DNA of 37,199 bases, taken from a virus. Made by a program: the position numbers and the translations under genes. The stretch covers positions 1-37,199 of IMG/VR virus record IMGVR_UViG_3300043397_000022; one strand, written 5' to 3'. Positions 17,740 through 37,199 of the stretch are shown here, piece after piece (within the stretch, counting starts at the first letter, position 1; each line of letters opens with the position of its first letter). Below the pieces are notes generated by a model. It was not told the DNA's origin, ran no database searches, and saw only the letters and a list, made by a program, of their open reading frames with translations.

Positions 17740-17749
17740 ATATAGATAA

Positions 17750-17757
17750 AATAAATA
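17750..17757 (+). promoter_or_regulatory. T4-like late promoter octamer AATAAATA
   Basis: AATAAATA fits the NATAAATA late consensus and lies 17 nt before the ATG at 17775, the same spacing as before gene 6. It falls inside the reading frame that would start at 17736, which argues that the real translation start of the next gene is the downstream ATG. Confidence 0.6.
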
Positions 17758-17774
17758 CTGAAACGGAAAACAAA

Positions 17775-22740: not shown

Positions 22741-24282
22741 ATGGCATACACATTATCATTATCAAACGGAACCTCGTTGCTCGGCACATCCGGATTGCCT
22801 GACGGTACAATTGATACAACATCTACTAGCTTGGCCCTTGTTGGCAAAAACTATCCAGGCTATGGCGTTTTCCTAAACGAAAACATGATTCACATGTTAG
22901 AGAATTTCTCTAACACATCAGCACCGTCCGCAGCAGTACCGGGTCAGCTTTGGTATGATTCTGGAAATAAAGTTTTAAAAGTTAACGTAGTTGGAGCACT
23001 TGGTTCTCCAGCAACATGGAAAAGCCTAGCAGGCATCACTAATGCTGCAAACAAAGCAGCTATTACTATTGCGCCAAACGTAGGCGAGTTTTGGTGGGAC
23101 ACTACCAATAACCAACTTAAAGTATACAGTGGTTTGTTATCACAAGGCGATACCGGTTGGGTAACAGTTGGTCCTGCAAGTAACACAACAACAGGTCAAA
23201 GTGGCGCACAGCCCGACACAGTAGTTGACACAGGTTCTGTGTCGCACGTTGTGGTTAAGTTCTACATCAGCAGTGATTTGGTTGCTATCCTAAGCAAGGA
23301 TGCAGAATTTATTCCAGGCACACCAATTAACGGTTTCAACGTTATCCGTCCAGGCTTTAACTTAAGCAACGGCCTAACTAACCAATTGCAATACTTTGGT
23401 AATGCCAACGTTGCAATGAACTTAATGGTTAGTGGTACTGTTGTTAGTGCAGACAAATTTACACGTTCGGACGTTGTTACCACAAGTACAGTGCCAATGG
23501 TTACCAGTAACGTAGGTGGTTTGAGCATTGGTCCAACTAGTGACTTTGTAGTTAACGTTAGTACAGCAACAACTAGTGTTGGTGTGTACAACAACGACAA
23601 CAACTACGACACAATCTTTTATGTAAAAACTGGTGGCCTAACAACTCCAGTTATGAAAGCAAACGGTGCATTAGGCGCTGTTCAGCTATACAATGACCCA
23701 ACAACCAGTTTGGGCGTTGCAACCAAACAATACGTTGATACTGGTATTACCAGCTTAACATCTACTATGTTACGACGAGATGGTACAAATACCATCACAG
23801 GATCGTTGACACCAAGTGCCAACGTTACGTATAATCTAGGTTCTAGTACAGCCTGGTTTAACGGCGTTTATGGTAAATCATATCAAGCACAATACGCTGA
23901 CTTGGCAGAACGCTTTGAAGCAGATGCACATTATGATGCAGGTACTGTAGTTGAAATTGGTGGCACCAAAGAAGTTACCGCAGTTAAAGACGACTTAAGC
24001 GATGCAGTTTTTGGCGTAGTAAGCACAGACGCTGCTTACCTACTAAACTCTGTTGCTGGTACAAACGAAACCCATCCTGCTATTGCTTTAGCAGGGCGTG
24101 TACCTGTTAAGGTAATTGGTAAAGTTACCAAAGGCGATCGTTTGGTTAGTGCTGGAAATGGTATAGCAAGAGCAGCCCAGATGAGTGAGTTAACTCCGTT
24201 TAACGTTATTGGGCGAGCTTTAGAACACAAGGTCTCTGATGAACAGGGAACAATTCAAGCTATTGTAAAAATAAATAGCTAA
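22741..24282 (+). CDS. Tail fibre protein, paralogue 3, with YADLAERF-type C-terminal domain
   Basis: 513 residues. The N-terminus repeats the anchor of the two other fibre proteins (SLALVGKNYPGYGVFLNENM, then MLENFSNTSAP and GQLWYDSGNKVL), and a FWWDTTNNQLKVYSG motif matches paralogue 1. The mid-region DFVVNVSTATTSVGVYNN and VATKQYVDTGI are beta-stalk elements. Residues ~372-513 form a distinct domain: NLGSSTAWFNGVYGKSYQAQ, YADLAERFEADAHYDAG, VFGVVSTDAAYLLN, ALAGRVPVKVIGKVTKGDRL. This resembles C-terminal domains of long fibres in marine T4-like phages and, more loosely, peptidase G2-type intramolecular chaperones that trimerise and self-cleave; whether it cleaves itself is not visible here. 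Probably a long or side fibre subunit. Confidence 0.8.
   Translation: MAYTLSLSNGTSLLGTSGLPDGTIDTTSTSLALVGKNYPGYGVFLNENMIHMLENFSNTSAPSAAVPGQLWYDSGNKVLKVNVVGALGSPATWKSLAGITNAANKAAITIAPNVGEFWWDTTNNQLKVYSGLLSQGDTGWVTVGPASNTTTGQSGAQPDTVVDTGSVSHVVVKFYISSDLVAILSKDAEFIPGTPINGFNVIRPGFNLSNGLTNQLQYFGNANVAMNLMVSGTVVSADKFTRSDVVTTSTVPMVTSNVGGLSIGPTSDFVVNVSTATTSVGVYNNDNNYDTIFYVKTGGLTTPVMKANGALGAVQLYNDPTTSLGVATKQYVDTGITSLTSTMLRRDGTNTITGSLTPSANVTYNLGSSTAWFNGVYGKSYQAQYADLAERFEADAHYDAGTVVEIGGTKEVTAVKDDLSDAVFGVVSTDAAYLLNSVAGTNETHPAIALAGRVPVKVIGKVTKGDRLVSAGNGIARAAQMSELTPFNVIGRALEHKVSDEQGTIQAIVKINS
24270..24277 (+). promoter_or_regulatory. T4-like late promoter octamer AATAAATA inside the 3' end of the preceding gene
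   Basis: AATAAATA fits NATAAATA. It overlaps the last codons of the third fibre gene and lies 19 nt before the ATG at 24297. Placement at a fixed distance from the next start despite a coding constraint supports a functional site. Confidence 0.6.
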
Positions 24283-24296
24283 CATTGGAATAACAT

Positions 24297-25295
24297 ATGG
24301 CATACGGTTCAGGAAATACGATCCTCGCGTTGGATTACAATACGTTCGCACAAGGCGGCGCAAGCGTAAACCACGGCGTGGCAAACATTAACACAGTGTG
24401 GGGTGTAGGCTCCGGCGATAAAGGATACGGTCAAAGCACAACGTTGCCAACTGTTGCAGGCGGCACTGACACAGTAACAGCGACACAATGGTCCACAATG
24501 ATCAGTCGTTTAAACAGTATCCTAACACACCAATCTGGTTCTGGATCTGGTATTACTGCACCAACAGCAGGTGCAACCATTGCATACCTAAGCACACTAA
24601 GTTCAAGTATTACAACAGGTTTTAACAACCGTTTAAATGCAAACAGCAACGCAGTTGACGTTACAGGAACTGCACCAGCAGCATATGTGTGGAACACTAG
24701 TGCTCCAACTACTGCACAAATTATTCGTACTGCAACCTGGGCCAACGCAGACCAAGCACGTTACTTCTTTAACGCAGGCGGCAAATTGATTTTGACTTTT
24801 GCAGTGACCAACACATTAGGTAACGCAAAGGGTGCAGACTGGGCCACATTACTTGGCACCAAAATGCTAAGTTTAACCATTGGTGGTTACACTAATACTC
24901 GTAACGGCACCGGCGGCACAGCAACATCGACTAATACGGCAATTGGTTATTGGAACGCAGGAACTGCGGGTCAAAACGCAATTACATTAACATCAGCTTC
25001 TGGTACTGCTGACTATGGTAGCAACAGTGTATCTATTGGTATTAAGACAAACGGCGCACAAGGTGCTAACGGTGACGTTGGTACAGTAATGACGTTTACC
25101 ATTAACTTAAACGATGCTGCTGCTGATACAAACACTGCGCCAACAGGTATCCCGGCATACACACCGGCTGGTACAGCGCCAACTCAGGGTAACTTTAACG
25201 ATGCTCTAAACTTAAGCATCACAACCAACATTACAGTTCGCCCACCTGAAACTGTTAACTTGCCAACGGCAATCAGCAACCCAACTATCGCTTGA
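24297..25295 (+). CDS. Putative virion structural / tail fibre-associated protein
   Basis: 332 residues rich in Ala, Thr, Asn and Gly, without membrane segments or an enzymatic motif I recognise. Landmarks are ILALDYNTFAQGG near the N-terminus, ADQARYFFNAGGKLILTFAV near residue 150, and a repetitive beta-rich C-terminal half ending in LSITTNITVRPPETVN. The ARYFFNAGG segment recalls structural proteins near tail fibres in marine T4-like phages. It is preceded by a late promoter octamer, 15 bp follow the previous stop, and it is the last gene before the sigma70-type promoter. Likely a decoration or fibre-associated virion protein; the specific role is unknown. Confidence 0.65.
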   Translation: MAYGSGNTILALDYNTFAQGGASVNHGVANINTVWGVGSGDKGYGQSTTLPTVAGGTDTVTATQWSTMISRLNSILTHQSGSGSGITAPTAGATIAYLSTLSSSITTGFNNRLNANSNAVDVTGTAPAAYVWNTSAPTTAQIIRTATWANADQARYFFNAGGKLILTFAVTNTLGNAKGADWATLLGTKMLSLTIGGYTNTRNGTGGTATSTNTAIGYWNAGTAGQNAITLTSASGTADYGSNSVSIGIKTNGAQGANGDVGTVMTFTINLNDAAADTNTAPTGIPAYTPAGTAPTQGNFNDALNLSITTNITVRPPETVNLPTAISNPTIA

Positions 25296-25320
25296 CATAT
25301 AATTCACTTTCTAGTATACT
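25292..25320 (+). promoter_or_regulatory. Consensus-like sigma70 promoter opening the enzymatic cargo module
   Basis: TTGACA at 25292-25297, a 17-nt spacer and TATACT at 25315-25320 match the bacterial housekeeping promoter almost perfectly. It overlaps the stop codon of the last structural gene. The expected transcription start, about 7 nt downstream, falls on or next to the ATG at 25327. Unlike the upstream structural genes there is no late octamer here, so early or constitutive transcription by unmodified host polymerase is likely. Confidence 0.7.
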
Positions 25321-25339
25321 TGCTAGATGAGTGAATTAT
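25299..25339 (+). promoter_or_regulatory. 10-bp inverted repeat spanning the promoter -10 region and the start codon
   Basis: ATAATTCACT (25299-25308) and AGTGAATTAT (25330-25339) are perfect reverse complements. The 21-nt loop holds the -10 element and, against the right arm, the ATG at 25327; a CTAG/CTAG pair inside may extend the stem. There is no GC-rich stem or following T-run, so it is not a standard terminator. It could be an operator, or an RNA hairpin that hides the start codon in read-through transcripts only. Confidence 0.6.
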
Positions 25340-25647
25340 CTAATATTGTGGCCCAGGTTCGCGTGGCCACTGATTTTCAAACCAATAAACAAATCCTTAA
25401 AGAAAAGATCCAAACGGATCTGCACTTCGCATATAACGGCGGAATGTTTAAAGCAGATCCTGCCATTTACTCTTTTGTAATACTGTGGCAAGGTGATCAG
25501 GATGCGTTATTTTTGGAAGATGTATACGGTACTCCAATCAAAATTGTGCAAAGAGAATTCGTTGACCTTTGCACACAGCACTATCAAAGAGCCATGAATG
25601 AATGGCATCAACAGTATGCAGAACTCCGAAAAATCCGAAAAGTCTAG
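25327..25647 (+). CDS. Small conserved phage protein of unknown function
   Basis: 106 residues, not recognised as a named family. It is predicted soluble: amphipathic helix (SNIVAQVRVATDFQTNKQIL), a TDLHFAYNGGMFKADPAIYS segment, a short strand block (FLEDVYGTPIKIVQ), and a charged C-terminal helix ending YAELRKIRKV. The overall pattern resembles small hypothetical proteins of marine T4-like phages. It is the first gene after the sigma70-type promoter; the predicted transcription start coincides with its ATG and no Shine-Dalgarno sequence is present, so translation from that transcript would be leaderless. Its 3' end overlaps the first glycosyltransferase-like gene by 50 bases. Confidence 0.75.
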   Translation: MSELSNIVAQVRVATDFQTNKQILKEKIQTDLHFAYNGGMFKADPAIYSFVILWQGDQDALFLEDVYGTPIKIVQREFVDLCTQHYQRAMNEWHQQYAELRKIRKV

Positions 25648-26398
25648 AGGCGTTGTAATATTTGCAACCAACACAGCAGAAACAGACTATGTAGGGATAG
25701 CAGAGCAAAATGCCCGTTTAATAGAACGGTTTATGGGATTGCCTACTACAATTGTTAGTGCCAAGGACGCTGGGTCCAATAAACGGTTTAGTACCGACAC
25801 AGGTACTTTTGTAGAATGGAAAAATTTTGGAAGACACGAAGCATACGAAGCAAGCCCCTACCACGAAACCATCATCTTGGATGCTGACTATCTTATTTTT
25901 GACGATAGTCTTTGCAAGCTCTTTTGCAGCGATTTCGATTACTTGCTTTTTAACAAGAACCGGTACGTCAACATTGGCCAGCAGCCTAGTGTAATGGGCC
26001 CATACAGTTTGCCCTATGTGTGGGCAACTGCTGTTCTATTTCGCAAGACTCCCAAGTCTAAAATGTTTTTTGAGCTTGTGGGAAAGATTAAAAGAAACTA
26101 TGACTACTACCGGCTACTATATAACATCCAAGAAGGCAACTACCGCAACGACTATGCTTTCGCGATTGCACATTATATTCTGGAAGGAAATCAACTGGCT
26201 CCGCAGAGTTTTTCACCAGCTTCTATTCTCACATTTACTGGTGCGATTGAAAACATTACCATTGCTGAAAACATGGTTGTCAAAACATCCGATAGAGGCT
26301 ATGTGCTACCTCGTTGCAACCTTCACATCATCTCAAAGGCTTGGCTAAGTAGCCCTGCACTCAAAGAATTAGTCAATGGAGCCCTACATAGTGTTTGA
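25598..26398 (+). CDS. Glycosyltransferase-like protein (GT-A type), paralogue A
   Basis: 266 residues from the ATG at 25598 (an AAAGAG lies just upstream); M7 at 25616 is a possible shorter start, since recognisable sequence begins at residue ~17 (RGVVIFATNTAETDYVGIA). The order of a nucleotide-binding first strand, then SPYHETIILDADYLIFDDSL with a D95-x-D97 motif, resembles GT-A transferases, where DxD holds the metal and the nucleotide sugar. A later VWATAVLFRKTPKSKMFF and a DYAFAIAHYILEGN segment follow. It shares the N-terminal ETDY block and the PY(H/K)ETI.L.(A/S)D.L block with the protein encoded from 26677, so the two are paralogues. The sugar and acceptor are unknown. Family assignment is by motif, not by alignment. 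Confidence 0.65.
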   Translation: MNGINSMQNSEKSEKSRGVVIFATNTAETDYVGIAEQNARLIERFMGLPTTIVSAKDAGSNKRFSTDTGTFVEWKNFGRHEAYEASPYHETIILDADYLIFDDSLCKLFCSDFDYLLFNKNRYVNIGQQPSVMGPYSLPYVWATAVLFRKTPKSKMFFELVGKIKRNYDYYRLLYNIQEGNYRNDYAFAIAHYILEGNQLAPQSFSPASILTFTGAIENITIAENMVVKTSDRGYVLPRCNLHIISKAWLSSPALKELVNGALHSV

Positions 26399-26687
26399 TG
26401 CAACTGAAATACGAGATTTCACAATGCGGTATGGAATGACCATAACGAGTTTCAGCCGTGAACATATCAACGTGGATGTATACGGCGGCGCCCCTGTTGC
26501 TATTGCCGGAAGAGGCGGTGGCGTGACATTAGACACCACGCCAGAAAGTTTTGCGTTGTTGGTAATGGATACCGCTAAATTAAAGACTGAGCAAGATGAC
26601 ATGCTGCTCCGTGAGAAGTACCCCGCAGTCAAAGATGCATACGAAAAATATCAAGCGTTATTAGCATTAACCCGAAATGAAAAATAA
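26376..26687 (+). CDS. Small protein of unknown function between the two glycosyltransferase-like genes
   Basis: 103 residues: a beta-rich N-terminal half (YIVFDATEIRDFTMRYGMTI, then REHINVDVYGGAPVAIAG and a GRGGGVTL turn) and a helical, charged C-terminal half (LVMDTAKLKTEQDDMLLREK, then KDAYEKYQALLALTR). No signal peptide, membrane helix, Cys cluster or metal motif is present, and I do not recognise the family. It overlaps the upstream gene by 23 bases and the downstream gene by 11, so it is probably translationally coupled. It could be an accessory subunit of the neighbouring enzymes; the sequence alone does not show this. Confidence 0.7.
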   Translation: MEPYIVFDATEIRDFTMRYGMTITSFSREHINVDVYGGAPVAIAGRGGGVTLDTTPESFALLVMDTAKLKTEQDDMLLREKYPAVKDAYEKYQALLALTRNEK

Positions 26688-27519
26688 AGAGCCCCGCGGA
26701 TATCTAACACTTGCTATAAACTCAAAAGAGACAGATTACTTACGACTAGCATATCTACAAGCGTTGAACATTAAAGCAACGCAGAAAATGAATTGCTGTT
26801 CTGTTATTGTTGACCAAGACACATTCAACTTAGTAGAAGACAAGCACCGTGCAGTGTTTGATCATATCATTCCTACTAATCGGGTAGAAGGTGCAGGCCC
26901 GTATGCCAATGAATGGCATGCATGGTGGCTAACTCCTTACAAAGAAACCATTAAGCTAGAAAGTGATTTGTTATTCACTCGCAGCATTGACCACTGGTGG
27001 CCCGCATTTAGATTACACGATGTTTGCCTAAGCCACGGATGCAAAACATATCAACAAACAGCCGGGACGAGTAGACAGTATCGGCAAGTGTTTGATGATA
27101 ACCAATTGCCGGACACTTATAACGGCTTAATGTATTGGCGTTACAGCGAACCTAGTAAGCAGTTCTTCGGCATTGCCAAAGATATTTTTGAGAACTGGGA
27201 CGCAGTTAAAGCAGAGTTAAAAAACTGTGATGACCCATATCCTACCACAGATGTAGTGTATGCACTAACAGCAAAGATTATGGATACTCCTTGCTACAAT
27301 CCTAGTTTGGATTTCATTAACTTTGTGCATATGAAATCGGGCATGCAAGGGTGGAGTGACACACAGGAATGGACCGAATACTGTGTTACTGAACGCAATG
27401 AAGATATGATACGCATTAACAATATTAACCAATTGCATCCAGTTCACTATCATGTAAAAAACTTTGCAACAGATGAGTTGATTGAGTACTATGAGCAAAG
27501 AATTAGCGGAAGCATTTAA
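26677..27519 (+). CDS. Glycosyltransferase-like protein (GT-A type), paralogue B
   Basis: 280 residues. The N-terminus (RGYLTLAINSKETDYLRLAY, then LQALNIKATQKMNCC) and the central PYKETIKLESDLLFTRSID correspond to paralogue A. The motif here is ESD rather than D-x-D, so the first acidic residue is Glu, which could weaken or change metal binding. Further landmarks are ANEWHAWWLTPYKE, DTYNGLMYWRYSE, a DPYPTTDVVYALTA stretch and HMKSGMQGW toward the C-terminus. Together with A it suggests two related transferases for different sugars or positions. Alternatively it is a non-catalytic relative that binds the acceptor. It overlaps both neighbouring genes, by 11 and 29 bases. Confidence 0.6.
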   Translation: MKNKEPRGYLTLAINSKETDYLRLAYLQALNIKATQKMNCCSVIVDQDTFNLVEDKHRAVFDHIIPTNRVEGAGPYANEWHAWWLTPYKETIKLESDLLFTRSIDHWWPAFRLHDVCLSHGCKTYQQTAGTSRQYRQVFDDNQLPDTYNGLMYWRYSEPSKQFFGIAKDIFENWDAVKAELKNCDDPYPTTDVVYALTAKIMDTPCYNPSLDFINFVHMKSGMQGWSDTQEWTEYCVTERNEDMIRINNINQLHPVHYHVKNFATDELIEYYEQRISGSI

Positions 27520-27829
27520 CAACATACAAGCCATACCTCCTGTAGAGCTTGAGTATCGTTTGTACTATGACTCAAAAGGTAAGCCAATAACTATGAGCAG
27601 CCACATGCACCCAGCGGGGCAGTATGTGGTTATCACCAAACAGCATTACGACAGTGCAAACTATAACTGCCGAGTAGTTGGCGGAAAGTTACTCTTTGAC
27701 TTAAGCAGTCAGTTTCACGTACAATTAAAGAAAAGCAATACCGGCGTGCCTGTTGTAAATGGGTACGCTAATCTTGTTGTGGAAAACAATGAGTATACTG
27801 ATATAGAATATTATGACAGAAATAATTGA
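27491..27829 (+). CDS. Small conserved phage protein of unknown function
   Basis: 112 residues from the ATG at 27491; a TTG at 27482 in the same frame is a less likely start. The protein is mostly beta: VELEYRLYYDSKGKPITMSS, HPAGQYVVITKQHYDSA, YNCRVVGGKLLFDLSSQ and a tail ending in DIEYYDRNN. I recall similar proteins as hypotheticals in marine T4-like phages but know no function. There is no enzymatic motif. It sits inside the overlapping gene run (29 bases with the upstream gene, 17 with the downstream one). Confidence 0.7.
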   Translation: MSKELAEAFNNIQAIPPVELEYRLYYDSKGKPITMSSHMHPAGQYVVITKQHYDSANYNCRVVGGKLLFDLSSQFHVQLKKSNTGVPVVNGYANLVVENNEYTDIEYYDRNN

Positions 27830-28712
27830 CGTTGCGGATTTAGATTGCATCTACTTAACATATGACGAACCAAAGAAAGAAGAGTTTTGGGTCCAGATTC
27901 AAAATGTTATTCCCTGGGCCAAGCGAGTGGACGGAGTTAAGGGTTCGGATGCTGCACACAAAGCAGCCGCTGATGCTTCAGATACAGAAAGGTTCATCCT
28001 CATTGATGGGGATAACCTCCCTGATCCTGCTTTTTTTAATCAACAGATGGATCTGGATGATTCTAATCGTGATTGCGTTTTCCGATGGCGAGCACGTAAC
28101 AATATAAATGGACTAATGTATGGTAATGGTGGACTTAGCTCGTGGACTAAGGATTTTGTTTACAATATGCGGACCCACGAGGCCACCGATGGGACTGCTG
28201 AGACGCTTGTGGAGTTTTGCTTTCACCCAAAATACTGGGCCATGTCTGACTGTTATTCAACAACATATCCAAACGCATCACCTTTTCAAGCCTGGCGTGC
28301 AGGGTTTCGTGAGGGTGTTAAAATGTGTTTGGATCGCGGAGCCAAGCCAAGTCTCGCTGAGTTCAAATCACGAGTTAATGAACGTAATCTCGACAATCTC
28401 TGCATATGGCAAAGCGTGGGAGCAGACGTGGAAAATGGGCTTTGGGCAATTGCGGGTGCCCGCCAAGGTACTTACAACACTATGCTCTCAGACTGGGACT
28501 ACACAGAAGTCCAAGACTTCGACAAGCTAAAAGACTATTGGGATAACACCGTACACAAGTTTGATATTGCTAGCTTTGTGGACTTGTTTAACGATGAGCT
28601 AATCAAAAGATTGGACTTACCAATTGTTAACATGGGTGCAGAACAAAGTAAATTTTTCAAGCACCATTACATGAGTCAATTCAAGAACAGAGGAATCATG
28701 TGTCGAGAATAA
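27813..28712 (+). CDS. Glycosyltransferase family 2-like protein with DGDN motif
   Basis: 299 residues of a type I recall from marine phages. The start (DLDCIYLTYDEPKKEEFW, then PWAKRVDGVKGSDAAHKAA) looks like a GT-A nucleotide-sugar fold: after the first strand, the VKGSDAAHKAA helix precedes FILIDGDNLPDPAFF, where D65-G-D67-N68 would be the DxD-type metal site. A YGNGGLSSWTK motif, an HEATDG segment and a long region with FQAWRAGFREGVKMCLDRG and WQSVGADVENGLWAIAGARQ follow, ending in LPIVNMGAEQSKFFKHH. It is not closely similar to paralogues A and B. Function: transfer of an unknown sugar to an unknown acceptor, inferred. It overlaps the sulfotransferase gene by 13 bases. Confidence 0.7.
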   Translation: MTEIIDVADLDCIYLTYDEPKKEEFWVQIQNVIPWAKRVDGVKGSDAAHKAAADASDTERFILIDGDNLPDPAFFNQQMDLDDSNRDCVFRWRARNNINGLMYGNGGLSSWTKDFVYNMRTHEATDGTAETLVEFCFHPKYWAMSDCYSTTYPNASPFQAWRAGFREGVKMCLDRGAKPSLAEFKSRVNERNLDNLCIWQSVGADVENGLWAIAGARQGTYNTMLSDWDYTEVQDFDKLKDYWDNTVHKFDIASFVDLFNDELIKRLDLPIVNMGAEQSKFFKHHYMSQFKNRGIMCRE

Positions 28713-29269
28713 AAGGAACTATTGTTATCGGTACAGCTCGCAGCGGCAGTCATATGACCTGTGATTTGCTGTACAACAATTCGCAACTAGCCAACAAGCA
28801 TATGCTCGGCGAAGTAACAGAGTTGCCAGCGATTGAAGGTAAGTTTGTGTATTGCAGCATTGTGCAAAATTGGGCAAAGGCTAAACTAGCGGTAGACACA
28901 TCTTGGATCAAAGATTATCATGTTGTTAATCTAAGACGTCGTGATAAGGTTGCACAGTACCTAAGTTGGTGTGTGTTTAGGGCACAGACCCAAGCCAGCG
29001 TAAGCAAACATTCACCAGTGTGGGATGACTACAAAGATCTACTGCCGTGGGAATCAACAGCAGACGATATTGAAATGTTTTTGATGGAGCAGTATCTTGA
29101 TTTTGCAATTAAACCGCACGAAGTAATATATTACGAAGACATTACCAAACGTACAGTAATAAACACAAGATTTAAAAAGAATCAATATCCAGTGCAGCCA
29201 CAAGAGATAGTAACCGACTACGCATTAGTTAAAAACATGTTAGAGAAATTTTCATATGACCGCAGGTAA
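28700..29269 (+). CDS. Sulfotransferase-like protein (Stf0/P-loop type)
   Basis: 189 residues from a GTG start at 28700, supported by CAGAGGA a few bases upstream; a nearby ATG is in another frame. The N-terminal TIVIGTARSGSHMTCDLL is the 5'-phosphosulfate-binding loop of PAPS-dependent sulfotransferases (R14-S-G-S), and VVNLRRRDKVAQYLSW at ~74-90 followed by FRAQTQ matches the 3'-phosphate-binding region of Stf0-like enzymes. The rest is compact, with YYEDITKRTVINTRF near 140. It is shorter than cellular Stf0 enzymes, as phage versions often are. It would transfer sulfate from PAPS to a sugar or other hydroxyl, using PAPS from the host. Position between glycosyltransferase-like and radical SAM genes suggests a glycan substrate; the acceptor is unknown. 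Confidence 0.72.
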   Translation: MSRIKGTIVIGTARSGSHMTCDLLYNNSQLANKHMLGEVTELPAIEGKFVYCSIVQNWAKAKLAVDTSWIKDYHVVNLRRRDKVAQYLSWCVFRAQTQASVSKHSPVWDDYKDLLPWESTADDIEMFLMEQYLDFAIKPHEVIYYEDITKRTVINTRFKKNQYPVQPQEIVTDYALVKNMLEKFSYDRR

Positions 29270-30644
29270 GAGTGACTTTATGAGTGCAGCAGACGAGATG
29301 AAGGCCAAGTTAGGTCCTGCACTCTGCTTGGCTAAATGGCAGCAAGTTAGCCTACATCTTCCCACAGGGCTAACCAACAGTTGTTATCATCCACCTCTAC
29401 ACAAAATTGATGTAGCACCACTTAAAGATAATCCTGGCGCATTGCACAATACTGCTCACAAAAAAGAGCAACGTGTGATTATGCTCAAGAATGAGAAGCC
29501 AGATGAGTGTAGCTATTGCTGGAACATCGAGAAACACGGACAACTAAGCGACAGACATTATCGTTCAGGTGAACCCTGGGCAGCAGAACACTATGAAGAA
29601 ATTGTACAAGGTAACTCAGACAATCCAATTCCAAGTTATGTGGAAGTCAATTTTAACCACGCTTGTAACCTTAAGTGTAGTTATTGCAGCCCTCAGTTTA
29701 GCAGTAGTTGGGCTGACGAAGTTGGTAGGCATGGAGCATTTCCCACTAGTGTTCCTCATAATGATCCCAACCACTTCTCATCTACTAGACGACCAATCCC
29801 CGCTAGTGAGTCTAATCCTTACGTGGATGCGTTTTGGGAGTGGTGGCCTGAGCTCTACCCTAAACTTAAACACTTTAGAATGACAGGCGGCGAGCCACTA
29901 ATGGACAAGAACACTTACAAGGTGTTTGACTATGTGCTGGCATTGCCAAAGCCCGACCTACATTTGAATGTAACCAGCAACTTCAGCGTAGAGCCTAAGC
30001 TAATGGATCAGTACCTTGATTATGTAAAACGTTTGTGCAACACACAGATTGAACATTTCATGCAGTACGTTAGCATCGACACTGGCAACTTACGGCAAGC
30101 AGAATATATTAGGCATGGTATGGATGGTGACAGAGTGGTCCGTAACGTTACTCGTTATCTGCATGACATCCCGCACCGTAACAGTCTCACGTTCATTGTC
30201 ACAATGAATAACCTAAGCATTGTTGGGCTAACGGAACAGTTAAAATGGATCCTTAATTTGCGACGAGCGTTTAGCACCACATACCAACGTGTTTGGTTTG
30301 ACACTCCATTGCTACGCACACCTAGCTGGCAAAGCATTCAGATCATGCCTTGGGTATATGTCAAGCGTATGGAAGATGTACTAAAATGGATGCAGGAAAA
30401 TGCCGAAACAGCAGACACACCATTCCAGGGATTTAAGGATTACGAGATTCAACGGATGGCTCGTGACATAGAATGGATGAAGGAAGGTAGCACTCTTGAC
30501 CCTGATTATGTTAAACTGCAACGTGCTGACTTTTACCGCTTCTTCTCACATCACGATATAAGACGCGGAACCGACTTTTTAAAAACATTCCCAGAGATGA
30601 AAGAGTTCTGGGACGAATGTAGATACCATGCCCAAAATCAATAA
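29256..30644 (+). CDS. Radical SAM protein with N-terminal twitch/SPASM-type cysteine region, member 1
   Basis: 462 residues. The core starts at VEVNFNHACNLKCSYC, where C137, C141 and C144 form the CxxxCxxC site for the 4Fe-4S cluster that cleaves S-adenosylmethionine; RMTGGEPLMDK is the GGE SAM-binding motif. N-terminal to the core are C24, C43 (SCYHPP), C85 and C88 (ECSYCWNIE), which look like ligands for an auxiliary iron-sulfur cluster. In most SPASM enzymes this region is C-terminal; here it precedes the core, the arrangement I know from twitch-domain radical SAM proteins of phages and aquatic metagenomes. The C-terminus (HHDIRRGTDFLKTFPEMKEF) is a motif shared within the array. It is closest to member 2. 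Substrate and product unknown. ATG at 29256; M9 is an alternative start. Confidence 0.88.
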   Translation: MTAGKSDFMSAADEMKAKLGPALCLAKWQQVSLHLPTGLTNSCYHPPLHKIDVAPLKDNPGALHNTAHKKEQRVIMLKNEKPDECSYCWNIEKHGQLSDRHYRSGEPWAAEHYEEIVQGNSDNPIPSYVEVNFNHACNLKCSYCSPQFSSSWADEVGRHGAFPTSVPHNDPNHFSSTRRPIPASESNPYVDAFWEWWPELYPKLKHFRMTGGEPLMDKNTYKVFDYVLALPKPDLHLNVTSNFSVEPKLMDQYLDYVKRLCNTQIEHFMQYVSIDTGNLRQAEYIRHGMDGDRVVRNVTRYLHDIPHRNSLTFIVTMNNLSIVGLTEQLKWILNLRRAFSTTYQRVWFDTPLLRTPSWQSIQIMPWVYVKRMEDVLKWMQENAETADTPFQGFKDYEIQRMARDIEWMKEGSTLDPDYVKLQRADFYRFFSHHDIRRGTDFLKTFPEMKEFWDECRYHAQNQ

Positions 30645-31977
30645 CGAAACAGACTTAGAATACAAACGCAGAGTAATTGACATCAAGTCAGAAAGCTTCT
30701 GCGGAGCCAAATGGTACAACGCCACTATCTGGTTAGGTAGTGGACAGACGACCAGTTGCCATCACCCTCCGGCACACTCAATCAAACTACGCGACCTGGC
30801 TACTAATCCCAAAGCACTGCACAACACACCAGTAAAGAAACTGGATCGTGAGCAGATGCAAAAGGGTGAACGTCCTGCAGGTTGCGAGTACTGCTGGAAG
30901 ATTGAAGACATGGGCAAAGATGCGGTAAGTGACCGCGTATACAAAACAGTTATATACAACGATAAGGATTTAGATGCAGCATTTCGTACTCCCGCAAGTG
31001 AAGACGTCGACTTACAAACCCTCGAAATCGCATTCGACCGTACTTGTCAATTCGCTTGTTCTTATTGCAATCCTGCTTTTAGTAGCACTTGGGTTAAAGA
31101 CATTAAGCAACATGGACCATACACCCAATTGGTTAGTGACGGTAGGAATCATTTTACTCATGCTCACGATGGTAGTCAACTGTATAAATTCGGTGAAGTT
31201 AATCCTTACGTGGAAGCATTCCACGCATGGTGGGAATCAGATCTCCACAAGACTTTAAAAGAGTTACGCATCACAGGTGGCGAGCCATTGATGTCCGGTG
31301 AGACATGGAAGCTAATTGATTGGTTCAAAACCAACAAGGGCAAGAGTACCACACGCCTTGCTATCAACAGCAACTTAGGCACACAAGTAGACATTGATCG
31401 TTTGCTTGACAGCATTGATGGCGTAGAAGTTGACTTGTACACCAGTAACGAATCAATGGGCTTACAGGCAGAGTACATTCGCGATGGTATTAACTTTGAT
31501 GACTGGGCCAACAACGTGGAGCGACTACTAGACAGCGGTAAGTTCCGTGGCCTGCATGTGATGTGTACTGTTAACGCATTGTGCCTTAGCAGCTTAGACA
31601 GTTTCCTTGAAATGGTTATGCAATGGAAAGTAGAGTACGGCAAGGATGCCATTAACTTTTCGCTAAATATCTTACGCTTTCCAAGTTTTCAATCACTTAC
31701 AGTTCTCCCCGACGATATTCGCAAAACCTACTACACTAAGTTAAATGACTTTGCTGCTAGTTATGTCCAAATGGACTTAATGCACGAATACGAATTTAAC
31801 CAACTTACTAGGTTGATTGACTACATTGGTACAGTGGAACAGGCACACAGCGAAGCAGTTAGTCGAATCATACTGCAACGTGACTTTAAAAACTTCTTCG
31901 CACAATACGACCAACGCAGAGGCAAAGACTTCTGCAACACATTCCCTGAATTAGCAGAATGGTATAAGGCAATATAA
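30628..31977 (+). CDS. Radical SAM protein with N-terminal twitch/SPASM-type cysteine region, member 2
   Basis: 449 residues, the nearest relative of member 1. N-terminal ligand candidates are C25 (CGAKW), C44 (SCHHPP), C86 and C89 (CEYCWKIEDMG), at spacings like those of member 1. The radical SAM core begins at CQFACSYC (C140, C144, C147), followed by NPAFSSTWVKDI, RITGGEPLMSGETWKLID and LAINSNLG. The C-terminus YDQRRGKDFCNTFPELAEWY matches the end of member 1. Both keep the AKW and SC-x-HPP motifs in place of the PW and CC motifs of members 3-5. Its gene overlaps the upstream gene by 17 bases and the downstream gene by one (TAATG), a junction suited to translational coupling. Catalytic residues appear intact; function unknown. 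Confidence 0.88.
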   Translation: MPKINNETDLEYKRRVIDIKSESFCGAKWYNATIWLGSGQTTSCHHPPAHSIKLRDLATNPKALHNTPVKKLDREQMQKGERPAGCEYCWKIEDMGKDAVSDRVYKTVIYNDKDLDAAFRTPASEDVDLQTLEIAFDRTCQFACSYCNPAFSSTWVKDIKQHGPYTQLVSDGRNHFTHAHDGSQLYKFGEVNPYVEAFHAWWESDLHKTLKELRITGGEPLMSGETWKLIDWFKTNKGKSTTRLAINSNLGTQVDIDRLLDSIDGVEVDLYTSNESMGLQAEYIRDGINFDDWANNVERLLDSGKFRGLHVMCTVNALCLSSLDSFLEMVMQWKVEYGKDAINFSLNILRFPSFQSLTVLPDDIRKTYYTKLNDFAASYVQMDLMHEYEFNQLTRLIDYIGTVEQAHSEAVSRIILQRDFKNFFAQYDQRRGKDFCNTFPELAEWYKAI

Positions 31978-33293
31978 TGGCAGACGACTTAAACGATTAC
32001 TATAAAGATTACAACTACGGCGCACGTAAGCCGGTGTACATTAAGGAAGAAGACTTACGAAAAGATCAACTTGACAGATTAGTTAAGAGTGATCAGTTCT
32101 GCATGATTCCGTGGATCCACATGCATGGCTTTCCGGACGGTCGTGCTTACCCTTGCTGTCTAAGTGAACCAGAGCATCCTATTGGTAATTTTAAAACGCA
32201 AACAATGCGTGAAATTTGGAATGATGCGCCAATGAAGGATATGCGTAAACGCATGTTGCTTAACCAAGACTGTAAAGAATGCACCAAGTGCTATGAACAA
32301 GAAAAATCGAAACTCTTTAGTATGCGAGAAAGTGCCAATAAGAACTTTGGGCATCATATCGGATTGGTGGATGATACTAAGGAAGATGGCACCTACGAGG
32401 ATTTCAAACTCCGGTATTATGATATTCGTTTTAGTAATCTTTGTAATTTTGCTTGCAGAACCTGCGGTAGTATCTTTTCTTCAAACTGGTACCAAGACGA
32501 AAAGAAAGCAGGATGGGATCCAAAGCATCCTCAAATCATGTACGCTGGAAAAGATAAAGGAGACATGTGGGAGCAGATGCAAGAGCATATTCCACACCTT
32601 GAGCAAATCTATTGGGCTGGTGGTGAACCACTCATTATGGAAGAGCATTGGAAAGTTCTTGACGAGCTAGTAAAACGCAAAATGTTCCATGTGCGACTAA
32701 TCTATAACACTAACTTTAGTGAAATGAAGTTCAAGGGTCGTGACGTGTTTGAAATGTGGAAGCTGTTTGATTGTGTATCAGTTGGTGCCAGCTTAGATGG
32801 CAGCTATGCACGTGGCGAATATATGCGTAAAGGACAAGACTGGCAGCAAACAGTTGAGAATCGTAAACGTATGATTGAAGTTTGCCCCAATGTAGACTTT
32901 TACGTTAGTAGCACAGTAAGCATGATGAACGTGTTGCACATTGCAGATTTCCACAGAGACTGGAGCGAACTTGGCCTAGTACGTCCAATGGATTGGAACA
33001 TTAACATTCTGCAACATCCACATCGTTACCGTGTTGATGTATTGCCACAAGATCTTAAAGATCGTGCTAAAGCAAAGATTGAGCGTCACCTAGACTGGTT
33101 ACGCCCACTGGATAGCTTAACTCGTGCAACAAGCGGGTTTGAGGGTATTGTTAATTTTATGATGGCCAATGATAGTACAAGTCAGCTACCTGATTTTTTC
33201 AAGAACAACAATCTAATTGACAATGTACGCAATGAAAACTTCTTTGACGTATTCCCTGAACTACACGAATTGAAAAAGTATGACCCTACCTAA
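31977..33293 (+). CDS. Radical SAM protein with N-terminal SPASM/twitch domain, member 3
   Basis: 438 residues. The N-terminal SPASM/twitch pattern is clear: FCMIPWIHMHGFPDGRAYPCC (C42, C60, C61) followed by IGNFKTQTMREIWNDA and DCKECTKC (C99, C102, C105). The core begins at SNLCNFACRTC (C156, C160, C163), then IYWAGGEPLIMEEHWKVLD and LIYNTNFSEM. A GASLDGSYARGEYMRKG segment is shared in form with member 5. The C-terminus FFDVFPELHELKKYDP corresponds to the array's shared end motif, shortened. The extra Cys in the N-terminal cluster would allow an additional auxiliary cluster. The start codon overlaps the previous stop as TAATG. Substrate unknown; the domain order (auxiliary region first) resembles NCBI-style twitch-domain radical SAM proteins. 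Confidence 0.9.
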   Translation: MADDLNDYYKDYNYGARKPVYIKEEDLRKDQLDRLVKSDQFCMIPWIHMHGFPDGRAYPCCLSEPEHPIGNFKTQTMREIWNDAPMKDMRKRMLLNQDCKECTKCYEQEKSKLFSMRESANKNFGHHIGLVDDTKEDGTYEDFKLRYYDIRFSNLCNFACRTCGSIFSSNWYQDEKKAGWDPKHPQIMYAGKDKGDMWEQMQEHIPHLEQIYWAGGEPLIMEEHWKVLDELVKRKMFHVRLIYNTNFSEMKFKGRDVFEMWKLFDCVSVGASLDGSYARGEYMRKGQDWQQTVENRKRMIEVCPNVDFYVSSTVSMMNVLHIADFHRDWSELGLVRPMDWNINILQHPHRYRVDVLPQDLKDRAKAKIERHLDWLRPLDSLTRATSGFEGIVNFMMANDSTSQLPDFFKNNNLIDNVRNENFFDVFPELHELKKYDPT

Positions 33294-34488
33294 GACTATT
33301 TGTATGCTACCGTGGATTAGTATTGAAACTAGTCCAATGGGCACCACACGCCCATGCTGCCTTGCACAGGAGCAAATCACAGATGAAAACGGTAACAAGT
33401 ACGATCTCAATGAAACAGACTTAGAGACTGTATATCGCAGTGAGTACATGCAAAATCTACGTAGACAGTTTCGTGCAGGAGAAAAGCCTGCAACTTGTAG
33501 CGACTGTTGGCGCGAAGAAGAAGTTGGTCGTAACAGCAAACGCATTAACAGTCAGATACGATTAAAAGAACTATACCCGTTAGTGGACTGGGAGAATGAT
33601 ACTCCGGATCAACTGTGGTTTATTGACTTAAAGCTAGGCAATATCTGTAACTTGAAATGCCGCATCTGTGGCAGCTGGAGCAGCAGCAAGTGGGCAGAAG
33701 AAGAAATGAATTATCTCCCACCTGGTGCAGATAAGAAACAGCATATTGCATACACCTGGCTTAAGAAAGGTGCATGGCCACGAAAGACAGAAACGTTCTG
33801 GGATAACCTGCGTAAGCTGTTGCCTAATGTGCATTACTTAGAATTCACCGGTGGCGAGCCTTGGTTAATCCAGGAGCATTTTGATCTATTGCGATTTGCA
33901 GCAGATCAAGGACTTGCCAAGAACATTGATATTCACTACAACACAAATGGAACACAGTGGCCAGAGGATGCACCCGAGCTATGGAAAGAGTTTGGCCGTG
34001 TTGATATTGCATTTAGCATTGACAATGTAAACGATCGTTTTGAATACGAGCGTTACGGTGCTAAGTGGACAGAAGCAAACACAATCATTGATAACACACA
34101 CGAGTTAAGAAAAACACAGCGTAACATTACCACGCAGCTTTGTTTCACAATCAACATTCAAAACGTGTACTACATTGACGAGCTGCTAAATTGGGCTGCA
34201 CCCAAGATGTTTAACAGCATACACTTCAACATGCTACACGGCCCTAATCATATGAGTGTGCAATACATGACACCTGCTGCACAAGAGCTAGTAATTAACA
34301 AGTTACAGTCTATCAAGTGGCCCGGGCGTTACCAACAAGAAGTAGATAACGTTGTTAAGTTTATACAAAGTGGGGCAGGCAGCGATGGCAAGGAATTCCT
34401 ACGTCAAATGCAACGCACTGATGCTTACCGTAAACAAAACTTTATGACCACACACCCTGAGATTGCAAAGGCTATGGGATATGAATAA
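33280..34488 (+). CDS. Radical SAM protein with N-terminal SPASM/twitch domain, member 4
   Basis: 402 residues. The N-terminal cluster region starts almost at once: ICMLPWISIETSPMGTTRPCC (C8, C26, C27) and ATCSDCWREEEVGRNSKR (C73, C76). The core is LGNICNLKCRIC (C123, C127, C130) with GSWSSSKW, then LEFTGGEPWLIQEHFDLL and IHYNTNGTQWPE. IAFSIDNVNDRFEYERYG and LCFTINIQNVYYIDELLNW are typical barrel strands. The C-terminus DAYRKQNFMTTHPEIAKAMG is a recognisable variant of the shared end motif. C8-C26-C27 and the following pair are spaced as in member 5, so these two form a subgroup. It overlaps its neighbours by 14 and 8 bases. All SAM-cluster residues are present; substrate unknown. Confidence 0.9.
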   Translation: MTLPKTICMLPWISIETSPMGTTRPCCLAQEQITDENGNKYDLNETDLETVYRSEYMQNLRRQFRAGEKPATCSDCWREEEVGRNSKRINSQIRLKELYPLVDWENDTPDQLWFIDLKLGNICNLKCRICGSWSSSKWAEEEMNYLPPGADKKQHIAYTWLKKGAWPRKTETFWDNLRKLLPNVHYLEFTGGEPWLIQEHFDLLRFAADQGLAKNIDIHYNTNGTQWPEDAPELWKEFGRVDIAFSIDNVNDRFEYERYGAKWTEANTIIDNTHELRKTQRNITTQLCFTINIQNVYYIDELLNWAAPKMFNSIHFNMLHGPNHMSVQYMTPAAQELVINKLQSIKWPGRYQQEVDNVVKFIQSGAGSDGKEFLRQMQRTDAYRKQNFMTTHPEIAKAMGYE

Positions 34489-35776
34489 ACCCGCTACTAT
34501 GTGCCTTGCGCCGTGGACTCACACATATCTAAGCCCACAAACAGAACGCAGGATGTGCTGTGCTAGCAGGGAACCTGCACAAAACTTTCAACAGTATATC
34601 GACACCGCTGCGGGCAGTGGCAAGTATATACCTATCACGCTGGATGAACACTGGAATGGAGAGCACATGAGGTCCGTGCGCCTGCGTATGTTACGCGGGG
34701 AAACCCTCCCAGAGTGCGAAGTATGTAATGATAAACTGTTGAATACTTCCGTTTACCGCAGCTATTTTGATAGTTTATTTGGTCATAAGTATGATTACAA
34801 CTTTGTAACAAACAATACGGACGAAACAGGTTACACAAAGTTGCAACCTGTTAGTTGGGATTACAGATTTACCAATCTTTGTAATTTCAAATGCCGTATG
34901 TGTGGCGACATGTTGAGCAGTAGTTGGGAGACTGAGCAAAAGCAGCATAACATGGTAGATTGGTCTAATCCAAAGAATATTTGGATGCAACCTGAAGTCA
35001 AAAAACAAATTGAGCAATTTCAAGATAGTCAAATTGAAGCCGAATTCTCAAAGGCAGTTGAAGAGCACAGAGTTGAAGAGATATATTGGGTAGGTGGCGA
35101 ACCCCTGATGTACGAACAGCACTGGCGCTACATGACACGCATTATAGAATTAGGAGACGGACCTCGTGTTTATGCAAGATACAATACCAACCTCAGTAGA
35201 GTTAGCTATAGAGGCATTCACCTTTATCGCGATATTCTTAGCAGGGTTCGTGATTGGCAGATATGTGCGTCAATCGACGGTACGGGAGCGATTGGGGAAT
35301 ACATTAGAACAGGCCTTGACTACAATACCTGGCTTGAAAACTTCCGTGAGGGAATTACGTATGCATCTCATTATCGCCAGATGCGAATCGACTTCACCCT
35401 TACCTTGCCAGGAATGTTTGAAGTCCAACGGATTGAAGAGTTGTCCAAAGAACTTGGAGTCGACGTCCTTGCCAAAGTAATTTTTAGTTTTAGCCCGGAC
35501 ATAGTTATGTCACCGCTTGCACTACCTAGACATCTACTTGATGAATGGATAGACGAACAGCTGACCACTGGAACTGGCGGACCCTTGCGTGACATACTGG
35601 TCCAGCTAAAAACTAGACCTACGTTTGAGGAACAATGGCCCAATGAATATCAAGATGGGCTAAAGCGTGGCAAAGCTCGTATCGAAAAACTTGAACAAAT
35701 TCGCAATGACAGCTATACTATGAGGGACATACTTGCAGGCAGACCTGCGGTGTTAGAATGGTGGAATTCAATTTGA
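34481..35776 (+). CDS. Radical SAM protein with N-terminal SPASM/twitch domain, member 5
   Basis: 431 residues from the ATG at 34481, which overlaps the previous stop by eight bases; a TTG at 34463 in frame is a less likely start, because the ATG places the Cys motif at residue 8 exactly as in member 4. N-terminal ligands: MCLAPWTHTYLSPQTERRMCC (C8, C26, C27) and ECEVC (C79, C82). The core is TNLCNFKCRMCGDMLSSSW (C134, C138, C141), IYWVGGEPLMYEQHWRYM and VYARYNTNLSRV. CASIDGTGAIGEYIRTG resembles member 3. An insertion rich in Gln/Glu (QPEVKKQIEQFQDSQIEAEF) lies after the core Cys motif. The C-terminus ends DILAGRPAVLEWWNS, the weakest form of the shared end motif. Substrate unknown. Confidence 0.88.
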   Translation: MNKPATMCLAPWTHTYLSPQTERRMCCASREPAQNFQQYIDTAAGSGKYIPITLDEHWNGEHMRSVRLRMLRGETLPECEVCNDKLLNTSVYRSYFDSLFGHKYDYNFVTNNTDETGYTKLQPVSWDYRFTNLCNFKCRMCGDMLSSSWETEQKQHNMVDWSNPKNIWMQPEVKKQIEQFQDSQIEAEFSKAVEEHRVEEIYWVGGEPLMYEQHWRYMTRIIELGDGPRVYARYNTNLSRVSYRGIHLYRDILSRVRDWQICASIDGTGAIGEYIRTGLDYNTWLENFREGITYASHYRQMRIDFTLTLPGMFEVQRIEELSKELGVDVLAKVIFSFSPDIVMSPLALPRHLLDEWIDEQLTTGTGGPLRDILVQLKTRPTFEEQWPNEYQDGLKRGKARIEKLEQIRNDSYTMRDILAGRPAVLEWWNSI

Positions 35777-36855
35777 ATAAAGTAACAGTAACCCTGCAAA
35801 ACCCGTTAGACAAAAGTGACACGTTAGATTACTACATCGACGTGGCTAATACCCCAATGGGCCAGATGTGGTTTGAAGCGTTACAAGATGTAGTGCAGCG
35901 TAATCTCTATCTTGAAAAGAACTTTTGCTTTTTAGGATTTCCGGACAGCCAACGTGACTTGCGTTTTATTTGCCAGGAACTGTTTTGGGCAGTAAATGAG
36001 ATTAACAGTTTCTTCGACGACTACCATATCGAAGAACTGTACACTCATACTACATTACGCAATGGTCTAGAGCCTAACCAGGACTTGATGAACAAGCTGC
36101 ATAATCACTTTGAAATACTGCAAGGCACTGTTAACGGACTTAGTGAATATTACAAGCGGGCAGACTATACCACAAAGTTTGCTATACGCCAACTAAACTT
36201 GCTGTGCCACGAAGCAGAAAGTTTAATGCTTAGTCAACGCAAACAAGCAACGCAGCCAGAGTGGGTTCGTCCTAGTCAAATCACAACCTTTTTAAATTGC
36301 CCACGTTATGAATTCCCAGCAATACATCGAACTACATTTGACGAATCTCGATATGACAGACGCTTCGGGGAAGTATACCTACATTGGACGCAAATTGGTA
36401 AAACGTTGTATGAAGTATATCGAGACGAAAAAGGAGTCGATATTGACCAGAGCGTATGTGATGCTATTACTCACCTACGTTACTATAGCGGGGAGTTTGA
36501 CGTCGAGTGGGCGCAGGATGTGGTCTATAATGGTCCCCATCCTTGGCACACCCGAGAGCTGGCAGGATTTAGGGATTGGCTTGTACGCAACGGGTTCGAG
36601 TTGGACAACACAGAATACAACTACGGATATCACCCTGTGGGCCAAGTGGATTTACAAGCAAGTTTTGGCACAACCAACTACTCTGAGGTTTGGCCCATAC
36701 TTTCAAGGTACCTCGACATACAAGGGATCGCTACAGATGACGGGCAAGGGAATGTTCTACGCTCCGTATATCCCTACACTTGGACAGATCCGGATTATTA
36801 TGAACAGCAAATCAACAAGTTAAAGCCTGGTTATGATTATAGCAGCAGGAGATAG
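35758..36855 (+). CDS. Conserved phage protein of unknown function downstream of the radical SAM array
   Basis: 365 residues, soluble, without a recognised enzyme motif. I recall this pattern from hypothetical proteins of marine phages and aquatic metagenomes. Landmarks: YYIDVANTPMGQMWFEALQD, VQRNLYLEKNFCFLGFPDS, a helical middle (NKLHNHFEILQGTVNGLSEY, then KFAIRQLNLLCHEAESLML), RPSQITTFLNCPRYEF, FGEVYLHWTQIGKTLYEVYR, AITHLRYYSGEFDVEWAQD and a C-terminus ending in NKLKPGYDYSS. The Cys residues are scattered, with no cluster pattern. The ATG at 35758 overlaps the last radical SAM gene by 19 bases. Coupling suggests it works with the array, perhaps as a partner or substrate-presenting protein; this is inference. 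Confidence 0.75.
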   Translation: MVEFNLNKVTVTLQNPLDKSDTLDYYIDVANTPMGQMWFEALQDVVQRNLYLEKNFCFLGFPDSQRDLRFICQELFWAVNEINSFFDDYHIEELYTHTTLRNGLEPNQDLMNKLHNHFEILQGTVNGLSEYYKRADYTTKFAIRQLNLLCHEAESLMLSQRKQATQPEWVRPSQITTFLNCPRYEFPAIHRTTFDESRYDRRFGEVYLHWTQIGKTLYEVYRDEKGVDIDQSVCDAITHLRYYSGEFDVEWAQDVVYNGPHPWHTRELAGFRDWLVRNGFELDNTEYNYGYHPVGQVDLQASFGTTNYSEVWPILSRYLDIQGIATDDGQGNVLRSVYPYTWTDPDYYEQQINKLKPGYDYSSRR

Positions 36856-37199
36856 TTTTGTTTACGGCAGTGAGCTAGCGAGCCCTGCTAACACATTTAC
36901 CGCACTGCTAGGGGCCCAACAATGCGTTGCATGGCCCGGATATGGCAATGACGCCATCGCACGTACAGCTATTGAGCGTTGTGAGCAAGGCAGAGTCTCT
37001 GGCGTAATTGTGTCCTGGACATTTCCTGGTCGTTACGAGTTTAGATTTGCATACGATACACAGCAACGCAAGAGTCCGTGGTACAGTATTAACGCATGGA
37101 CTATCAAACAAGATGCCAGAGAAATTGAACAAGAATTTGTTACCAAAGATACGGCTATTCTGGATGCCCAGCTGGAATCCATACGCAGAGCGAAGGCGA
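36833..37199 (+). CDS. SGNH/GDSL-like hydrolase, 3'-truncated by the window
   Basis: The frame from the ATG at 36833 is open to the last base (122 codons visible). It begins MIIAAGDSFVYGSELASP, a clear block I (GDS, catalytic Ser in GDSF) of SGNH hydrolases, and continues with VAWPGYGNDAIARTAIERCE, which fits block II with the oxyanion-hole Gly and the conserved PG-x-x-ND-x-I-x-R form seen in phage members. Then a strand GVIVSWTFPGRYEFRF corresponds to the block III region, with W-T in place of the usual GxND. The catalytic His block lies beyond the window. Likely an esterase or deacetylase acting on acylated glycans; the substrate is unknown. It overlaps the previous gene by 23 bases and continues the overlapping run. 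Confidence 0.75.
   Translation, partial: MIIAAGDSFVYGSELASPANTFTALLGAQQCVAWPGYGNDAIARTAIERCEQGRVSGVIVSWTFPGRYEFRFAYDTQQRKSPWYSINAWTIKQDAREIEQEFVTKDTAILDAQLESIRRAKA

Follow-up and report, generated by a model that had tools for sequence, protein, structure and literature searches.

Five tandem radical SAM genes of the NF033640 family

We analyzed a linear virus record of 37,199 bases (IMG/VR record IMGVR_UViG_3300043397_000022, taken whole and called the window here) that carries, at positions 29256 to 35776, a run of five genes for radical S-adenosylmethionine (SAM) enzymes. These genes, which we call R1 to R5, all lie on the plus strand, each overlaps or abuts its successor, and the array has zero intergenic space on the coding strand. 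R1 spans 29256 to 30644, R2 30628 to 31977, R3 31977 to 33293, R4 33280 to 34488, and R5 34463 to 35776; the open reading frame (ORF) of R5 was called from a TTG at 34463, and its first ATG, judged by eye from the translation, is at 34481. Each protein contains a CxxxCxxC motif (starting at residues 137, 140, 156, 123, and 140 of R1 to R5, respectively), a GGEP motif (starting at 211, 217, 215, 191, and 211), and, before the radical SAM core, a cysteine-rich region that is a putative auxiliary 4Fe-4S cluster domain. An earlier note, made from the sequence alone, had described this arrangement, and its coordinates, gene count, and motifs were all borne out.

The N-terminal cysteines are residues 24, 43, 85, and 88 in R1; 25, 44, 86, and 89 in R2; 42, 60/61, 102, and 105 in R3, which has an additional C99 kept in 69 of 117 orthologs; 8, 26/27, 73, and 76 in R4; and 14, 32/33, 85, and 88 in R5. 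The four N-terminal cysteines, the three radical-SAM cysteines, and GGEP were conserved in all orthologs having a residue at that position (125 for R1, 115 for R2 [114 at three cysteine columns], 117 for R3, 97 for R4, and 102 for R5), as was C268 of R5 in 102 of 102 orthologs. In an alignment of 36 sequences reaching bacterial relatives, C42, C102, C105, and the radical-SAM cysteines were invariant, and C60/C61 occurred in at least 90% of rows. R1, R2, R4, and R5 are just 22 to 26% identical to R3.

All five proteins exceeded the cutoff of NF033640 (NCBIfam, twitch domain-containing radical SAM protein; 170 bits) over nearly the full profile, with scores of 303.4, 304.9, 410, 335.2, and 278.1 bits for R1 to R5. 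Their motif pattern is thus not due to chance, and placement of the twitch domain at the N terminus is a trait of a named family, not the unusual feature that the earlier note had supposed. SPASM maturases carry a C-terminal cysteine-rich SPASM domain with seven cysteines, whereas the cysteine-rich region of R1 to R5 is N-terminal, with four conserved cysteines, and one to three cysteines follow the core. Of the hidden Markov model comparisons that the note had proposed, the twitch model matched all five proteins, and the Pfam SPASM model (PF13186) was above its cutoff at the N termini of R3 and R4, below it for R5, and without a match in R1 and R2. The Pfam Radical_SAM model (PF04055) was above its cutoff of 29.5 for R4 alone in a scan of the proteins (26.2 to 29.3 for R1, R2, R3, and R5); over the whole window record it gave five matches, two of them above cutoff.

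Gene order in viral and bacterial relatives

Rather than the isolated copies that the earlier note had named as the finding that would speak against it, we found strongly conserved synteny. Scans seeded with R1 and R3 gave 67 + 80 = 147 loci, the R1 scan retaining 80 of 289 relatives. Removal of 20 duplicates by contig name left 127 viral contigs, or 128 with the window; near-identical contigs remain in this set, and R1 or R3 is present in each contig by construction, since both served as seeds. Genes were assigned to a type at >36% identity to the window gene, and order was taken from the best-scoring gene of each type. The complete order R1-R2-R3-R4-R5 was found in 90 of the 128 contigs, and a further 16 had R1-R2-R3-R5 with R4 fused to R3. 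The other 22 were partial, two of them (L067 and L072) being divergent and not cut, and none of the 128 was rearranged. L067 and L072 each have five N-twitch genes, one of 792 amino acids, and only R1 and R3 among them were similar enough to the window genes to be typed. Of 114 R3 genes, 17 carry R4 as a fusion, a label that changes at least three times on the R3 tree. In many contigs the array is interrupted by other genes, including additional, divergent radical SAM genes.

The phages carrying the array are T4-like. In the window we found the T4-like baseplate genes gp25 (2029 to 2403) and gp6 (2450 to 5770), and gp23 was present in 15 of 23 long records (118 to 357 kb) picked for length from the 127 contigs; none was seen in the other 8, which are possibly fragments. 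The best matches of gp6 among cultured phages, at ∼35% identity, were in the jumbo phages Sinorhizobium Phosso, Agrobacterium Atu_ph07, Xanthomonas XaC1, and Cronobacter GAP32. Each long record had 5 to 16 NF033640 matches (E up to 0.001), and all 23 had at least one above the cutoff; in 14 control genomes of bacteria and archaea all matches were weak, and no genome had one above the cutoff. Within the phage collection, only four Vibrio phages matched R3 at an E value of 1e-5, with 22 to 23% identity. A-type iron-sulfur (Fe-S) carrier genes are phage encoded in 8 of the 23 long records and possibly support the many Fe-S enzymes. Tail fiber and other structural-type genes extend to position 25295 of the window. 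Between the baseplate and tail fiber genes lies one ORF of 3,981 amino acids (5794 to 17739), and a glycine-rich tail-region protein (19884 to 21224; Pfam Gly_rich_2) is a possible adhesin.

Trees were quick ones built without bootstrapping, the main tree having 137 rows. The phage members of R1, R2, R4, and R5, including the window genes R1 and R2 in their respective clades, were each set apart by a single branch (support, 74, 97, 98, and 97, respectively). R3 needs two changes on the tree because three marine phage-like contigs binned into metagenome-assembled genomes (MAGs; L161 to L163) nest within it. A contig from a Bacteriovoracaceae MAG (L174) has eight N-twitch genes at 6046 to 18042, flanked by Obg and Lgt genes, and for every one of R1 to R5 they include a sister or close relative, the weakest case being R3 (branch support, 82). 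A 143-amino-acid, signal-peptide-like ORF lies in the middle of this array. Bacteriovoracaceae is a family with predatory members. Because the five types recur in phage, marine phage-like, and L174 settings, the set looks old and kept whole, although misbinning of the MAG contigs is possible.

Other bacterial relatives were more varied in setting. Thirteen bacterial genomes, chosen because they had matches, had from 3 to at least 69 N-twitch matches each. The upper value, a lower bound from scoring 69 of 114 candidates, comes from the Elusimicrobia MAG MJ-2014_bin-0981 (L213; genome G032), in which many NF033640 matches fall within ORFs of 600 to 1,200 amino acids in head-to-tail runs. Four Bacteroidota relatives (L191, L201, L202, and L216) have a carbamoyltransferase in the analyzed stretch; in two of them, L191 and L202, UbiA genes are present as well, along with GDSL-like domains just below the Pfam cutoff, and L202 has glycosyltransferase (GT) domains. 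Altogether, a carbamoyltransferase was found in 8 of 78 further N-twitch loci, including the phage-like L161. The Bacteriovoracaceae MAG contig UBA6261 (L217) combines N-twitch genes with a carbamoyltransferase match and a weak match (E value, 2.8e-8) to F2, the gene that follows R5 in the phages, and is the sole F2-like match among the 78 loci. A Paenibacillus relative (L219) lies in a cluster with genes that by eye encode acyl-carrier, ketosynthase, and ligase proteins.

The earlier note had proposed five related activities acting together. The unbroken order in 128 contigs, the R3-R4 fusions, and the occurrence of all five types in one bacterial MAG array agree with this, and the coupling of R1 to R5 in one joint pathway is well supported, with the five enzymes acting either in series, as the note had also suggested, or in parallel.

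Operon partners and transcription

From 25327 to the end of the window, plus-strand genes form a chain in which each overlaps or abuts the next, and several of them accompany R1 to R5 in nearly all relatives. Upstream of the array, the families F0, F1, and F5/F12 were present in 108, 108, and 109, respectively, of 109 contigs with enough upstream sequence. Downstream, among 52 contigs with enough sequence, we found F2 in 51, a carbamoyltransferase (a clear Pfam match) in 50, F3 in 47, and F4 in 44. F3 matches DUF6071 and falls below the cutoff of the GDSL lipase model. The association also held in reverse. Scans from F2 and F0 were made with the best 80 of 529 and the best 80 of 246 matches, many of them on the seed contigs again. 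All 72 F2 loci with enough flank had an R5-type gene immediately upstream (79 of 80 loci were examined, L049 being left out), and radical SAM genes lay downstream of F0 in all 60 of the 80 loci with enough flank.

F2 (35758 to 36855; 365 amino acids), conserved 3' of R5-type genes, had no NCBIfam, Pfam, or PHROG match, and its sole PDB row by profile search had an E value of 0.39. Its confident structure model (predicted local distance difference test [pLDDT], 85.4) had no significant PDB match (best Foldseek E value, 1.3). Cyclophilin-like and helical-bundle folds were considered and rejected, as the Z scores of up to 8.1 in VIA comparisons fall within the stated noise range, and for this reason we claim no fold for F2. 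F2 is closely linked to R5, has no clear known fold, and offers a second handle on the system.

The operon opens with a conserved protein of 106 amino acids (25327 to 25647; families F11, F13, F31, and F34) that has no Pfam or PHROG match. F1 (25598 to 26398) is GT-A-like by eye only (LDADYL), with no PHROG match, no Pfam match for its L006 ortholog, and no PDB profile match. It is followed by a 103-amino-acid ORF (26376 to 26687) that appears in the gene maps of only the window and L006 and has no Pfam or PHROG match. F0 (26677 to 27519) is GT8-like, its best PDB profile match being a weak one to glycogenin-1 (E value, 0.0094). Next come a small conserved protein of the F23 type (27482 to 27829; 115 amino acids), with no Pfam match and a best PHROG E value of 0.04, and F5/F12 (27813 to 28712), which is GT-like by eye only (LTYDEP and IDGDN) and had no library match better than an E value of 0.07 and no credible PDB profile match. 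F50 (28700 to 29269), from a family of 7, has by eye only a sulfotransferase-like P-loop; a Pfam match to Pox_mRNA-cap, an unrelated family, scored below cutoff and was rejected. Beyond F2, F4 (36833 to 37199) runs off the window and is SGNH-hydrolase-like by eye only (GDSFVYG); the window fragment had no library match, and its L046 ortholog had no credible Pfam match. The F7/F17 profile had no credible PDB match. APS-kinase-like genes lie downstream of the operon in relatives (8656 to 9465 in L007; families F24 and F36) and, together with the sulfotransferase-like gene just before R1, hint at sulfation.

A sigma70-like promoter (TTGACA-17-TATACT; 11 of 12 matches; plus strand, 25292 to 25320) lies after the last gene of the tail region, in the space before the operon, and it ends 6 nucleotides before the first annotated start codon. 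Across 90 distinct operon-start regions (regions at least 80% alike were merged), sites with at least 10 of 12 matches were found in 53, compared with 2.2 in shuffles (5 per region), and terminator-like hairpins in 34, compared with 1.2; 14 regions had both. At tail fiber starts, promoter-like sites were found in 5 of 82 (1.8 expected) and 5 of 64 (3.4 expected) regions, and none was found at the starts of F1 (0 of 81), F4 (0 of 54), or the carbamoyltransferase (0 of 57). Together, these counts make a separate transcription unit probable, and because the consensus is sigma70-like, we infer that the operon is transcribed early. We had initially considered a late operon acting on virions, which became less likely with the promoter and terminator counts, although counterevidence in the window, given below, remains. 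A promoter of its own also moderately favors a host target over a virion target.

Possible substrates and comparison with known systems

We tentatively read the operon, with a little less than even confidence, as a separately and perhaps early transcribed unit of T4-like jumbo phages in which R1 to R5 are five non-interchangeable enzymes of one pathway for a surface glycan, most likely the host's. Host RNA polymerase would transcribe the operon early, and the GT-like proteins would assemble a surface glycan of the lipopolysaccharide (LPS) or O-antigen type. Each radical SAM enzyme would then take one hydrogen atom from a sugar residue, leading to epimerization, dehydrogenation, or deoxygenation, with C268 of R5 as a candidate hydrogen donor and R3 and R4 performing consecutive steps. 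The SGNH-like and carbamoyl enzymes would finish the glycan, and the changed host surface might block competing phages or hide the receptor. The carbamoyltransferase, the weak likeness of F0 to glycogenin, the neighbors in L191 and L202, and an island in the cultured Vibrio phage K566 point toward surface-glycan tailoring. In K566 (L159, 10473 to 23256), N-twitch-like genes are interspersed with two GT8 genes, and genes for PagP (by annotation) and LpxC (by a Pfam match) lie within a few kilobases, in what looks like a lipid A/LPS island. The glycan substrate is a moderate inference from the neighbors, and the chemistry of the five enzymes is a guess from the family.

Several observations weigh against this reading. 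Recognizable glycosyltransferases, as expected of an LPS or O-antigen island, are clear as GT8 in K566; in the operon, F0 is a weak GT8 match with an E value of only 0.009, and for F1 and F5 the libraries gave no support for a glycosyltransferase assignment. We identified neither a nucleotide-sugar pathway nor a flippase or polymerase, and no glycosyltransferase was recognized among four flanking proteins scanned beside the L174 array. K566 has only 2 genes above the NF033640 cutoff. The three marine phage-like contigs L161 to L163 have a complete set arranged as R1-R2-R3-R5-R4, the sole reordering that we saw. The operon adjoins tail fiber genes, which fits a virion target as well. As for transcription, promoter-like sites were also in excess before F5/F12 (26 of 90) and F2 (14 of 67), with 3.2 expected for each; these sites overlap with coding sequence, and codon conservation or internal promoters may account for them. 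In the window, a sigma70-like site with 12 of 12 matches lies inside a tail fiber gene (23806 to 23835), the entire region has 52 promoter-like sites compared with 38.3 expected (standard deviation, 5.9), and the operon start lacks a called terminator. Finally, in structure comparisons R3 scores about equally well against sugar enzymes, peptide maturases, viperins, and a lipid enzyme. The confident AlphaFold model of R3 (pLDDT, 93.6; predicted template modeling score, 0.90) gave BlsE as the top VIA match of its core (Z score, 12.7), tied with SuiB, anSME, DesII, and CteB. The first Foldseek rows were the archaeal lipid synthase GDGT-MAS (top), viperin, CteB, and BlsE, and the R3 family profile had no PDB match at an E value of 0.01. 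The R3 fold does not single out a substrate.

Alternatively, the enzymes might epimerize or cross-link a phage protein, most likely the upstream tail fiber or glycine-rich protein or else a small operon protein, and the GT-like proteins might glycosylate the same protein. Most characterized SPASM/twitch enzymes act on peptides, the R3 core matches SuiB, anSME, CteB, and SkfB about as well as BlsE, and tail fiber genes lie directly upstream of the operon. We nevertheless think a protein target rather unlikely, given that sigma70-like promoters and terminators are in excess where the operon begins, that no tail fiber gene was recognized at the bacterial array L174, and that no leader or recognition element was found. 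Less likely still, the enzymes could be making a small molecule that serves within the infected cell, for example a natural product, a cofactor, or a modified nucleoside. The blasticidin S enzyme BlsE as the top (tied) VIA match of R3, the viperins among its best Foldseek matches, and the cluster around the Paenibacillus relative would suit such a product, but scores were tied over many radical SAM folds, R1 to R5 scored 16.9 to 28.9 bits on the viperin model NF038283, far below its cutoff of 180, and the GT-like, SGNH-like, and carbamoyl neighbors suit a glycan better.

The resemblance of R3 to SPASM maturases and the conserved small operon proteins of 104 to 119 amino acids could also be taken to indicate a pathway for a ribosomally synthesized and posttranslationally modified peptide (RiPP) with an unrecognized precursor. 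We consider this improbable: the small proteins are not leader-core shaped by eye, there is no space between genes from R1 to F2 in the window, and, as the earlier note had also reported, no precursor-like ORF, RiPP recognition element, or PqqD match was found, the small proteins having been scanned against Pfam and PHROGs and not NCBIfam. That the five genes are neutral or selfish paralogs spread by duplication, with no joint pathway, is very improbable, for although extra divergent copies are common between the five and some bacterial genomes have many copies (at least 69 in the Elusimicrobia MAG), the genes form five separate groups with complete sets, a near-fixed order, fusions, and intact motifs.

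A more specific form of the surface-glycan reading is possible, though less likely than not: a self-contained five-step radical pathway, with R3 and R4 fusable, that would act early in jumbo phage infection to install a hyper-modified surface sugar, with relatives arrayed in a Bacteriovoracaceae bacterium and F2 as an obligate partner of a new type. The substrate is directly testable, given a near-fixed module whose partners are defined and a bacterial array holding relatives of all five types. If the product is a host-surface glycan, these phages carry a large, dedicated radical-chemistry pathway that remodels infected cells.

The earlier note had also stated that phages usually have one or two radical SAM genes, and published many-gene phages contradict this. 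One report section describes 12 radical SAM genes, together with an A-type Fe-S carrier, in the genome of a T4-like marine virus (PMC5332604). It resembles our phages in being T4-like with many radical SAM genes and in the carrier, which 8 of our 23 long records share; it differs in that the order, type, and operon context of the genes are absent from that section. In the section covered on Aeromonas phage 332-Vera, the authors term its eight radical SAM genes highly unusual (PMC12390700). As in the window, many such genes occur in a structural-gene cluster of a giant phage, but 332-Vera belongs to the Chimallinviridae, and the section does not give the family and order of the genes. The host-recognition cluster of pelagimyophages, in the part of the paper covered, contains GT8 and radical SAM cassettes; modification of the host O-chain is the role that the authors propose for its glycosyltransferases (PMC7029224). 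There, too, radical SAM cassettes lie in an island with tail fibers and glycosyltransferases; however, the cassettes are variable and the island hypervariable, whereas the core in the window phages is nearly fixed, and the nearest gp6 relatives of the window are jumbo phages such as Phosso, Atu_ph07, and GAP32. Among 261 Baltic viral calls of ahbD, as given in the covered section of that study, both PF13186 and PF04055 were found in three contigs only (PMC9301287).

K566 is comparable as a sequenced, named phage in which N-twitch-like genes alternate with GT8 genes; it differs in its divergence (∼23% identity), in its two matches above the NF033640 cutoff, and in that its copies fall outside the R1 to R5 groups in the tree. 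NF033640 has a curated cutoff that all five window enzymes exceed, but it is a subfamily model with no function stated, and the phage set is a fixed five-type array with fusions in some members. The family is named for its domains, and our searches found no substrate for its enzymes. The family and its multi-copy habit in phages are already known. A fixed five-type ordered module with fusions was not found in the open-licence PMC literature, to the extent covered, and what appears to be new to that literature is the ordered module together with the R3-R4 fusions, the partner F2, and the probable own promoter.

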